NCBI GenBank assembly: GCA_031269825.1
Contig: JAISYP010000112.1
Location: forward strand, 1-41,087
DNA length: 41,087 nt
DNA from: Deltaproteobacteria bacterium
Lineage (GTDB): Bacteria; Desulfobacterota; Desulfarculia; Adiutricales; Adiutricaceae
Reading direction: 5' to 3'
Positions within the stretch are counted from its first letter, which is position 1, and the number at the start of each line of letters is the position of its first letter. A program made the position numbers and the translations under genes. The notes beneath the pieces were generated by a model. It had not been told where the DNA came from and did no database searches. It worked only from the letters and a program-made list of their open reading frames with translations. This document shows positions 36,976 to 41,087 of this stretch, piece after piece.

Positions 36976-37890
36976 ATGAGCTTTAAATATATAGATTTAT
37001 TCGCGGGCATTGGTGGCTTCCATCAAGCCGCTTCTCTTTTAAGCGGTCAATGCGTCTTCGCTAGTGAAATAAATGATGAGGCTAGAAAAGCGTATTCATT
37101 AAATTATGGTTTTTCCCCAGCCGGCGATATAACTAAAATTAACGCTAAGGATATACCCGATCACGATTTTCTGTTCGCGGGTTTTCCTTGCCAACCATTT
37201 AGTATTATTGGCAATCAATTGGGATTTAATGATATAAGAGGAACATTATTTTTTGAAATAGCTAGAATTTTAAAAGAAAAACAACCAAATATGTTTATTC
37301 TTGAAAATGTTAAGCAGTTAACTACTCATAATAATGGTATGACTTTAAATGTTATATTAGATCAATTACAAAAATGTGGTTACAAAGTTTTTTGGAGTGT
37401 TTTAAACGCTTTAGATTTTAATTTACCTCAAAAAAGGGAAAGAATTATTATAGTTGGCTTTTTAAATAATGATATTGATTTTATTTTTCCTAATATTAAG
37501 TCTCACTGGGATTTGAAATCAATATTAGAATCCGATGAAGATATCGATCCTAAGCATTTTGTTAGCGCTCATATTTTACAAAAACGATTGTCAAAACATC
37601 AAAGCATGTTCAACCCAGCTATTTGGCATGAAAATAAAAGTGGAAACATTTCTAGTTATCCATATTCATGCGCTTTACGAGCAGGAGCTTCATATAATTA
37701 CTTATTAGTTAATGGTAAACGTAGATTAACTCCTAGGGAAATGCTAAGACTACAAGGCTTTTCTGACTCATTTAAAATTGTTTGTAGCGACTTTCAGACC
37801 AGAAGACAAGCGGGTAACGCGGTTCCGGTAAACATAATCGCCGCTGTTTTACAAGCCATGATCGAGATAAAGAACAAAATTAAGCCATAA
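36976..37890 (+). CDS. C5 cytosine-specific DNA methyltransferase
   Basis: A 304-residue DNA (cytosine-5) methyltransferase. Motif I YIDLFAGIGGFHQA, motif IV GFPCQPFS with the catalytic Cys, motif VI ILENVK, motif VIII QKRERIIIVG and motif X QAGNAVPV are all intact. The target-recognition region between VIII and IX is short (about 90 residues), so specificity cannot be read. No restriction enzyme or vsr gene is next to it. The gene is much more AT-rich than its neighbours, which points to acquisition by transfer. No good ribosome site is visible before the ATG. Confidence 0.93.
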   Translation: MSFKYIDLFAGIGGFHQAASLLSGQCVFASEINDEARKAYSLNYGFSPAGDITKINAKDIPDHDFLFAGFPCQPFSIIGNQLGFNDIRGTLFFEIARILKEKQPNMFILENVKQLTTHNNGMTLNVILDQLQKCGYKVFWSVLNALDFNLPQKRERIIIVGFLNNDIDFIFPNIKSHWDLKSILESDEDIDPKHFVSAHILQKRLSKHQSMFNPAIWHENKSGNISSYPYSCALRAGASYNYLLVNGKRRLTPREMLRLQGFSDSFKIVCSDFQTRRQAGNAVPVNIIAAVLQAMIEIKNKIKP

Positions 37891-38088: not shown

Positions 38089-39510
38089 TTATCGTCTGGC
38101 CTTTAAAATGGCCAGAGCCATGGCCGCGGCCGTGGCTCCGTTTAAGGATTCCACTTGGGGATTCATGGGGATGGCTATTTTTTTTTCTCTCGGCCACAGA
38201 CTATCCAGGCCCGGGCCTTCTACGCCTAAAGCCAACCCCAAGCCTTTGGGTAAGTTGGCCTGGAAAATATTGTCGCCTCGGGGGGAGAGGGCGTAAATGT
38301 CCGCTCGCCCTAAATCTGGTAAACTTCGGTAACTAGGGCCTTGAAAAAGGGGCGTCTGGAAAACGGCTGGCCCGGCGGCGCGCAAGGCTCGGAAATGGAA
38401 AGGACTGGCCGCTTCCGTTAGCAAAACCACCGCGGTTTCCATGGCCGCGGCGGAACGAATGACGGCCCCCACGTTTTTGGGATCTTGGAAAGGAACTAAA
38501 AGCCAGGGCGATGGTTGGATTTGAGTCTCGTCCCAGTCCAACAAAGGCGGGGTTTTGAGCCAAATGATCGGCGGGCCGGTTCCTAAGACATCTAGTTCTG
38601 GGAAAATCTCGGGTCGGAGAAAAAAAACTGGCCAGTGACTTTTGATGGTCAAATTGGCCAGATCCCGGGGGTTAGTGGCGATAATCCCCAGGATCCGATC
38701 GCCCTGGTTTAATAACAGCTCTTGGGTAATTTTAGCCCCAAAAGCCAGCGTCTGGCCTTGACGCCGTTGGTGACGGCCTTCTAAAAGCTTAAGCCACGAG
38801 CGGAATCGGGGGTTTTGTGGACTGGCTATTTCCGTGACGCGTGGGGTAGGGGTCTTGGGTTGGCTCGGGGTTTTTTTGGTTAAAGACAACAAAGAGCGTT
38901 TATGAGATCCAACCTGGTAGTACTTTACGGCTAAATTGGTAAAATTGGCCCAGGCGGAATTTTTCGCGGCGTCGGCGATCTCTTGGTCGATCATGGGCCC
39001 TTTGAGGACAAACAGCTGTCCTTTTTGGGGTAAGATCGTCGCGGCTAGTTCGACAATCTCCGGTAAAGGGCCAAAATCTCGGGTTATAATGGCATCAATA
39101 AGGCCGGGGAAGCTAGATCCTACTTTGTGAGGATAAACCTGGACATTGGTCAATCCTAATAGGTCAATGGCCTCTTCCAAAAAGGCGAGTCTTTTTAAGC
39201 GGGGTTCCGCGAGGATAACGCGCCAATGAGGGCGTCGGATGGCCAGGGGTAAACCAGGAAAACCAGCCCCCGAGCCCAGATCCAGGAGCGTTCCTGGCTC
39301 GGGCAGGAAATCGGCCACCAAGGCTGAGTCCAGGTAATGCTTGAGGATCAGCTGGTGAGGATTGGTTCTAGTTAGATCCAAATGATCGATGTTTTGGAGT
39401 AAGAGTTGATCCAGGCGTAAAAAGCGACGCCATTGAAGGTCGCTTAGTTCCACCCCAGCTAGGTTAAACTCCAACAACAGGTTCTTGGCTCGGTCTTTGG
39501 TGAAAAACAT
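38089..39510 (-). CDS. rsmG: RsmG-TrmH fusion: 16S rRNA G527 methyltransferase plus SPOUT methyltransferase
   Basis: One 473-residue frame joins two RNA methyltransferases. Residues 1-210 are RsmG/GidB, which makes m7G527 in 16S rRNA: LILKHYLDSALVADFLP, LLDLGSGAGFPGLPLAI, RDFGPLPEIVELA. Residues 225-473 are a TrmH/SpoU-type SPOUT enzyme (2'-O-methylation): substrate domain EIASPQNPRFRSWLKLLEGR, then motif 1 DPKNVGAVIRSA, motif 2 LALGVEGPGL and motif 3 IPMNPQVESLNGATAAAMAL. No stop or frameshift lies between them. Motif 3 reads NGATAAA where VSVAAA is usual. AAGGAAA precedes the ATG. rsmG normally sits beside parA/parB near oriC; here parS sites lie 1.1 kb away but no parAB is in the window. 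Confidence 0.9.
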   Translation of the reverse strand: MFFTKDRAKNLLLEFNLAGVELSDLQWRRFLRLDQLLLQNIDHLDLTRTNPHQLILKHYLDSALVADFLPEPGTLLDLGSGAGFPGLPLAIRRPHWRVILAEPRLKRLAFLEEAIDLLGLTNVQVYPHKVGSSFPGLIDAIITRDFGPLPEIVELAATILPQKGQLFVLKGPMIDQEIADAAKNSAWANFTNLAVKYYQVGSHKRSLLSLTKKTPSQPKTPTPRVTEIASPQNPRFRSWLKLLEGRHQRRQGQTLAFGAKITQELLLNQGDRILGIIATNPRDLANLTIKSHWPVFFLRPEIFPELDVLGTGPPIIWLKTPPLLDWDETQIQPSPWLLVPFQDPKNVGAVIRSAAAMETAVVLLTEAASPFHFRALRAAGPAVFQTPLFQGPSYRSLPDLGRADIYALSPRGDNIFQANLPKGLGLALGVEGPGLDSLWPREKKIAIPMNPQVESLNGATAAAMALAILKARR

Positions 39511-39644: not shown

Positions 39645-40343
39645 TTGGAGCCCATGGTCATTTTTGAGGATCGCCAGTTGTTGGTGGTTCAAAAACCACC
39701 CCTTTGGTTGTCTCAAGCGGATAACACCCCACGGCCCGACGTGTTGACGTGGGCCCGACGACATGTGGAAGTCCAGAGTCAAAAGCCAGGTCGGGCTTAC
39801 TTAGGGTTGTGCCATCGCCTGGATTGGGCGGCTGGCGGGTTAATGGCGTTGGCCAAAACCTCCAAAGCCGCCAAAAGGCTCGGCCAACAGTTTTTGGCGC
39901 GAACCATTGGCAAATATTACCTGGCCCTAATTATTGGCGAGCCGCCTTTGGCTGGGCGCCTAAATAATGAACTATACCGGTCTGGTCATTTGACTAGGCT
40001 CGCGGTCAAAGGCGAGCCGGGGACATTGGCTAGGCTCGAGTACCGGGTTTTAGCGAGGGGCCTGATTCACCAGCGAAAGGGCTCGTTATTATCCATCAAA
40101 TTAATGACCGGCTTCAAGCACCAGATCCGAGCCCAATTGGCGGAATTGGGTTTTCCTTTGGTAGGGGATCGGCGTTATGGAGGCTTTATTGGCCCGTCGG
40201 AAGCCATTGGTCTGTGGGCTTATCGGTTAGAACTAGACAGCCCTGTGGGTCAAACCCCCTTAAGTTTCCAAGCCTGGCCCGGGGATTTCTGGCCTTGGAA
40301 CGCTTGGCGAGGCCCGAACTGGACGGATAGCGCTGACGCGTAA
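39645..40343 (+). CDS. RluA-family pseudouridine synthase
   Basis: A 232-residue (229 from the ATG at 39654) RluA-type RNA pseudouridine synthase. HRLDWAAGGLMALAKT carries the catalytic Asp; LIIGEPP, SIKLMTGFKHQIRAQLAELG and LVGDRRYGG are the other family blocks. The usual S in HRLDxxxSG is G, which is tolerated in the family. There is no S4 domain, so it resembles the short RluA/TruC subgroup rather than RluD. The start is uncertain: TTG at 39645 or ATG at 39654, with GGAG lying too close to the ATG. It diverges from the RsmG-TrmH fusion gene. Confidence 0.9.
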   Translation: MEPMVIFEDRQLLVVQKPPLWLSQADNTPRPDVLTWARRHVEVQSQKPGRAYLGLCHRLDWAAGGLMALAKTSKAAKRLGQQFLARTIGKYYLALIIGEPPLAGRLNNELYRSGHLTRLAVKGEPGTLARLEYRVLARGLIHQRKGSLLSIKLMTGFKHQIRAQLAELGFPLVGDRRYGGFIGPSEAIGLWAYRLELDSPVGQTPLSFQAWPGDFWPWNAWRGPNWTDSADA

Positions 40344-40453
40344 TAATTGTTTTAGCCTTAAAAACTGCTTTTTACTGGTAAAAATTCATAAAATTAATCG
40401 TTAAAGATAATATTTAATAAAATTAGATATTGTTTTAGTTTTAACTTATTATT
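40344..40453. other. AT-rich spacer before repeat copy 4
   Basis: About 110 bp of A/T-rich DNA with no gene or clear signal. Confidence 0.3.
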
Positions 40454-40563
40454 GATGGCCTCGCGAAAAGTCCAAAAATCAAGAATCTTAATTTATAAGT
40501 TATTGAAATTAATACTCTTTTTCTTGAAGATTTCCCGTAATTTAGGGTTTTCTCAAAACCATC
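40454..40563 (+). mobile_element. MITE-like repeat, copy 4
   Basis: A 110-bp copy from GATGGCCTCGCGAAAAGTCC to TTTTCTCAAAACCATC. The flanks ATTATT and AAATAT do not match, so the target duplication has decayed or recombined. It touches the parS cluster. Confidence 0.8.
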
Positions 40564-40598
40564 AAATATCAGTTTATCTTCCTTGTCCTGGAGTTTAT

Positions 40599-40614
40599 TG
40601 TTTCACGTGAAACA
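40599..40614 (+). promoter_or_regulatory. parS site 1 (exact)
   Basis: TGTTTCACGTGAAACA, the exact chromosomal parS consensus bound by ParB/Spo0J. Confidence 0.93.
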
Positions 40615-40642
40615 AGAGCCACGTTTAGGTTTAGGTCATTAT

Positions 40643-40658
40643 TGTTTTACGTGAAACA
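40643..40658 (+). promoter_or_regulatory. parS site 2 (one mismatch)
   Basis: TGTTTTACGTGAAACA, one change (C to T) from the consensus. Confidence 0.8.
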
Positions 40659-40727
40659 GTCCATAAGCATTGGCAGTGTTATATTTTTTCCAAAAATATC
40701 AGTTTTTTCCCTTGTCCTTGGTTCTGC

Positions 40728-40743
40728 TGTTTCACGTGAAACA
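40728..40743 (+). promoter_or_regulatory. parS site 3 (exact)
   Basis: TGTTTCACGTGAAACA, identical to the consensus. Confidence 0.93.
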
Positions 40744-40771
40744 AGAGCTATTTTGTGGTTTGGGTTATTAT

Positions 40772-40787
40772 TGTTTCACGTGAAACT
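40772..40787 (+). promoter_or_regulatory. parS site 4 (one mismatch)
   Basis: TGTTTCACGTGAAACT, the last base differing from the consensus. Confidence 0.82.
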
Positions 40788-40830
40788 ACCCATAACCATT
40801 GGTAGAGTTATATTTTTCCAAAAATTATGT

Positions 40831-41087
40831 TTTTCCCTACTTTTCCTAGCCGATCTTTAACAGCCGCCCCTGGCAGTCCATCTAATTTAGCCTAAAAAGG
40901 TTAATTTTAATTAAATTAGGTCATTTTTGGTGGGCTAAAAAAGCTATAAATCAGCTCTCTGGCCCCGAAAACCCTGATTCTACCGTCAAAAAGCGCTCTT
41001 GTAGCGCCCTAATTTTTTAAGGAAGGCAATTTTTGTAGACTTTCGGTCGGTGTCATGTTATTTTGACTGTATGTTTATTTCCAAAAT
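40831..41087. other. Window end without a gene
   Basis: About 260 bp with no open frame of note. An imperfect inverted repeat TCTAATTTAGCC...AATTAGG lies around 40879-40920. I see no clear DnaA-box cluster, so oriC itself is not evident. Confidence 0.35.

Follow-up and report, generated by a model that had tools for sequence, protein, structure and literature searches.

Four copies of the chromosomal centromere site parS, crowded into 189 bp near the end of a contig, raise the question of what such a cluster is doing there: does it mark the replication origin and the centromere of this bacterium, or has it been acquired and multiplied at another place in the chromosome? We approached this question by examining the window, i.e. 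the whole 41,087-bp contig C123 of a genome (G000) of 3.10 Mb that is assembled in 159 contigs and rated 83% complete, together with its relatives.

Two tandem units with four parS sites

The window was searched for the 16-mer TGTTTCACGTGAAACA, allowing up to three mismatches, with 100 shuffled versions as a control. Exactly four sites were retrieved from the entire 41 kb, two perfect and two with a single mismatch; the shuffled windows contained 0.11 sites on average and none of the 100 reached four, the chance expectation at this base composition being about 0.0006 sites per 41 kb when up to one mismatch is allowed. The spacings between sites are 44, 85 and 44 bp. The cluster and its immediate neighbours are arranged as follows:

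38089-39510, minus strand: RsmG-SpoU/TrmH fusion methyltransferase
39645-40343, plus strand: RluA-family pseudouridine synthase, the gene to the left of the cluster
40344-41087, no strand: AT-rich non-coding DNA (33% G+C) that contains the cluster and runs from the stop codon of RluA as far as the end of the contig
40574-40702, plus strand: first 129-bp unit, with two parS 44 bp apart
40599-40614, no strand: parS site 1, TGTTTCACGTGAAACA, no mismatch
40643-40658, plus strand: parS site 2, TGTTTTACGTGAAACA, one mismatch
40703-40831, plus strand: second 129-bp unit (78% identity with unit one)
40728-40743, no strand: parS site 3, no mismatch
40772-40787, plus strand: parS site 4, TGTTTCACGTGAAACT, one mismatch

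The two units, each 3 x 43 bp long, lie head-to-tail; the 78% identity was obtained in an ungapped comparison, and TRF reports a repeat at 40564-40825 with period 129, 2.0 copies and 82% matches. The original prediction of four parS 16-mers, two of them perfect, within 190 bp is thereby borne out by the mismatch-tolerant search and its shuffles, as is their arrangement in two tandemly duplicated 129-bp units of two sites each by the alignment and TRF; the interval proposed for the cluster, 40569-40830, was right to within a few bases. An identity of only about 80% between the units indicates an old duplication. They differ at 2 of 32 parS positions and at 27 of the 97 remaining ones (hypergeometric P = 0.007), so that, once duplicated, the sites have changed less than the spacers. 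Conservation of the sites above the neighbouring sequence is also observed in a parS array of the congener G002, where pairwise identity amounts to 0.92 for sites versus 0.74 for spacers. The window sites carry the 16-bp parS consensus characteristic of chromosomal centromere clusters and, judged by these features of the DNA, the four-site cluster probably binds ParB and is a plausible candidate for a dense ParB-loading site.

Position of the cluster relative to parABS and the origin

The region had been regarded as origin-proximal on account of the cluster together with a nearby rsmG. This gene is the RsmG-SpoU/TrmH fusion listed above. Of seven genomes of the genus that were searched, six carry the fusion, and it is not the rsmG linked to parAB: G006 carries both, the fusion on contig C155 and a separate solo rsmG adjoining parAB on contig C6. 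The gene order HD-HU-fusion-RluA-geneX-dgkA-TPR is conserved, completely or as far as the contigs extend, in G001, G002, G003, G005 and G006, and no parS with up to three mismatches was found near the fusion gene in any of these five congeners. This rsmG does not support an origin-proximal location, and the same block without parS in relatives further weakens the claim that the region marks the origin. In G001 the junction between RluA and gene X is tightly packed; in G000 the AT-rich DNA of the cluster stands there, and a search of this genome for gene X did not find it. The dgkA and TPR genes of G000 are located on contig C29, in which 2 kb of AT-rich DNA extend from dgkA to the contig end, and synteny suggests that C29 probably follows C123. 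Farther left in the window, the RsmG fusion is separated from the HU gene by a C5-cytosine DNA methyltransferase gene (36976-37890), which is not seen at that position in G001, G002 and G006.

GC skew does not favour an origin-proximal location either. It is positive across the entire window and, once C29 is turned to the window orientation, in this contig too; with C29 after C123, the skew would therefore keep its sign across the cluster. If the cluster were at the skew minimum, with the window to its left, the opposite sign would be expected. Cumulative skew in G006 has its minimum and sign switch at 85-90 kb, adjoining a parS array at 92.2-94.9 kb whose left flank shows negative skew, and in G002 the skew is positive on leaving the array, in G005 negative on approaching it. 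In the near-complete genome G029, as estimated from sampled stretches, the switch occurs at the parB locus, at about 2.577 Mb. Within a genome that is in 159 contigs, the window cluster does not lie at the skew minimum.

The parS arrays of the congeners occupy another locus. The fully assembled G006 array (L057:8164-10905, C6) comprises 27 sites, counted with up to three mismatches, in 2.7 kb; its spacings approximate multiples of 47 bp, and it is placed between parB2-parB1-parA/rsmG and an aminotransferase-ilvD pair. Both ParB proteins of G006 have the ParB_N and HTH_ParB domains and the GxRR and ENIxR motifs; their genes lie next to each other beside one parA (L057:2431-4238) and are 57% identical over about 268 residues. 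The arrays of G002 (L059:34-995, C187; at least 23 sites with a 43-bp period) and G005 (L058:8686-9889, C132; at least 15 sites, the last seven perfect at 40 bp) are in contigs broken inside the array, and both adjoin the same aminotransferase-ilvD pair. Since the gene block of the window is found elsewhere, and devoid of parS, in the five congeners, we rejected the possibility that the cluster and these arrays represent the same locus. In other members of the family (G024, G023) parB and rsmG have fewer parS in their vicinity.

When ParB families and the ParA and ParB proteins of G006 were used as queries, neither G000 (83% complete) nor the congeners G001-G005 yielded a canonical parA or parB; canonical ParB is present in G006 and many family members. 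Orthologues of the genes flanking parABS in G006 (glycosyltransferase, MlaE, HSAT-type gene, aminotransferase and ilvD) were not found in G000 either, the only matches being MlaE paralogues and more distant aminotransferases. Probably, the parABS region is missing from the G000 assembly along with its flanks, and absence of ParB therefore cannot be claimed. The apparent loss of parAB in G000-G005 has also to be read in the light of the contig breaks caused by the congener arrays themselves; the glycosyltransferase gene adjoining parB2 in G006 has a counterpart in G005, where unrelated sequence fills the final 0.9 kb of the contig beyond it, and a contig of G003 starts at this gene. The sole ParB-like gene of G000, on contig C18 (L206:1333-2349), lies beside uppS and a RidA-like gene. 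Its product scores 40.7 bits, under the cut-off, and has no GxRR motif, making it unlikely as the cognate ParB; similarly sized proteins that match ParB weakly are present in G006 and G002 as well.

These data bear on the possibility that the cluster is the primary centromere, origin-side parS DNA having moved to the RluA junction with parAB just past the contig end. Contig C123 does end 300 bp beyond the cluster, parAB was not found elsewhere in G000, no further parS (up to one mismatch) exists in the assembled genome outside the cluster and an insertion sequence (IS), and in G029 the fusion gene is 172 kb from parB; nevertheless, the skew is positive up to the cluster and again in C29, as opposed to the negative values to the left of the G006 array and beside the one in G005, and the parS-free block is common to five congeners, altogether rendering this explanation unlikely.

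A parS-bearing insertion sequence and the possible source of the cluster

Perfect parS 16-mers number six in G000: the two of the window cluster and four belonging to one IS (C62:132, C74:25934, C83:21659 and C142:88; L001, L002, L003 and L006). The latter are all near contig ends, inside one repeated DNA end, and the perfect parS precedes the transposase promoter (a -35/-10 pair) immediately upstream. The transposase, as read from a relative of the element in G001, matches DUF772. Two G001 copies of the IS retain 15 of the 16 parS positions; selection on this site was not seen among diverged copies, in which the 16-mer reaches 0.82 versus 0.81 for its surroundings. The IS end has no BLAST match in the window, and the cluster as a part of this element was accordingly rejected.

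It could still be argued that mobile or plasmid DNA equipped with a partition system of its own was inserted here, and that the cluster, carried along with it, no longer contributes to segregation of the chromosome. Its location in AT-rich DNA absent from this place in relatives, with another AT-rich stretch on the dgkA side, and the perfect parS on another mobile element of the same genome would fit such an origin, which we nonetheless hold to be improbable: no match was retrieved among 72,556 plasmid records, the window shares no BLAST similarity with the parS-bearing IS, and the better conservation of sites than spacers since the duplication argues against plain decay. A reading of the palindromes as operators for another DNA-binding protein can be largely discounted, for although the evidence on ParB comes from outside the locus itself and an operator would also fit the palindrome ahead of the IS transposase -35 box, the 16-mer is the near-universal parS consensus and is arrayed beside parAB at the skew minimum within the genus (G006).

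A proposed secondary parS cluster and its implications

The explanation that we favour, and to which we attach moderate confidence, is that of a secondary chromosomal parS cluster that arose in one lineage, was made by duplication and would use ParB from a parABS locus elsewhere. AT-rich DNA with two parS 44 bp apart would have arrived between the RluA gene and dgkA, one gene would have been lost at this junction, and the 129-bp tandem duplication would have turned two sites into four. In ParABS systems ParB dimers load at parS as CTP-dependent clamps that slide outwards, and the ParB-parS complex is moved by ParA and recruits SMC. ParB supplied by the canonical parABS locus, seen in full in the sister genome G006, would thus load at each window site as a clamp and slide onto the adjoining DNA, four sites in 189 bp allowing more loading per locus than one site, and the cluster would add to the partition complex acted on by ParA and SMC. 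Such an event may reflect a genus-wide habit of multiplying parS, which in G006 would have operated beside parAB itself. The sites, their duplication, their better conservation relative to the spacers, their unusual place and the congener arrays are observed; that ParB binds the cluster, that C123 and C29 adjoin (as judged from synteny only) and in which direction the change went are inferred. Against a secondary cluster count the searches of G000 and of G001-G005, in which no canonical parA or parB was found, the weakness of the one ParB-like gene of G000, and a review (PMC7333895) according to which two model species tolerate additional parS poorly when these are far from the origin.

Dense clustering of parS is not in itself unusual. 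At least 120 GTDB stretches hold three parS within about 130 bp (spacing 32-62 bp), 62 of those listed with parA, parB or rsmG within the stretch fetched, and in Myxococcus xanthus 22 parS are packed into 3 kb at a distance of about 4 kb from parA (PMC3899335). Dense parS clusters are thus already known, and the view that parS sites are normally scattered singly, on which the original prediction relied, does not hold. Among the first 80 listed stretches, the longest runs of even period have 15 sites (36-bp period), 13 sites (43 bp) and 10 sites (55 bp), and regular arrays in unrelated bacteria have 6 to 15 sites among the matches listed; viral contigs yielded no more than eight stretches in which three parS lie close together. 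Those longest even-period runs lie in Bacilli MAGs (L131, L133 and L085), and regular parS arrays are also present in Pseudobacteriovorax (L149, 43 bp) and Oligoflexus (L151, 40 bp).

As dense chromosomal clusters, the loci described here resemble that of M. xanthus, the nearest in form being the G006 array (27 sites in 2.7 kb); the window cluster differs from it in having four sites within a 129-bp tandem duplication and in not being seen adjoining parAB, and the G002 and G005 arrays differ in their fixed 43-bp or 40-bp periods. The sopC centromere of the F plasmid is made of 43-bp tandem repeats with one ParB-type site per unit. It likewise combines tandem repeats with ParB-type sites, and its period equals that of G002, but it belongs to a plasmid system with another site sequence, whereas the chromosomal parS 16-mer is repeated here. 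The many head-to-tail units of one short period that typify sopC are found in G002 (23 sites, 43 bp) and not in the window, with its two 129-bp units. The four-parS cluster of Pseudomonas aeruginosa (PMC4368675) equals the window cluster in number of sites but is described as close to oriC, whereas the window sites form a 189-bp tandem duplication away from the skew minimum. Less expected are the location of the window cluster away from parAB, the regularity of the congener arrays and the parS-bearing IS.

The reasons why parS number varies though one site often suffices, and what drives clustering, are named as open questions in the review cited above (PMC7333895). The genus offers a natural series in this regard, with the four-site window cluster, the G005 and G002 arrays of at least 15 to 23 sites and the 27-site array of G006; it makes tandem duplication recognizable as a way in which parS are gained, the sites being under selection. 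The IS would offer a second such route if ParB binds its parS. More tentatively, it can be speculated that the centromere of this genus behaves as a fast-evolving satellite (with periods of 40, 43, about 47 and 129 bp), with selection acting on the sites and with the parS-bearing IS, as well as inserted DNA like that of the window, seeding parS at new places in the chromosome. If that were true, array period and copy number would differ between species through tandem duplication.
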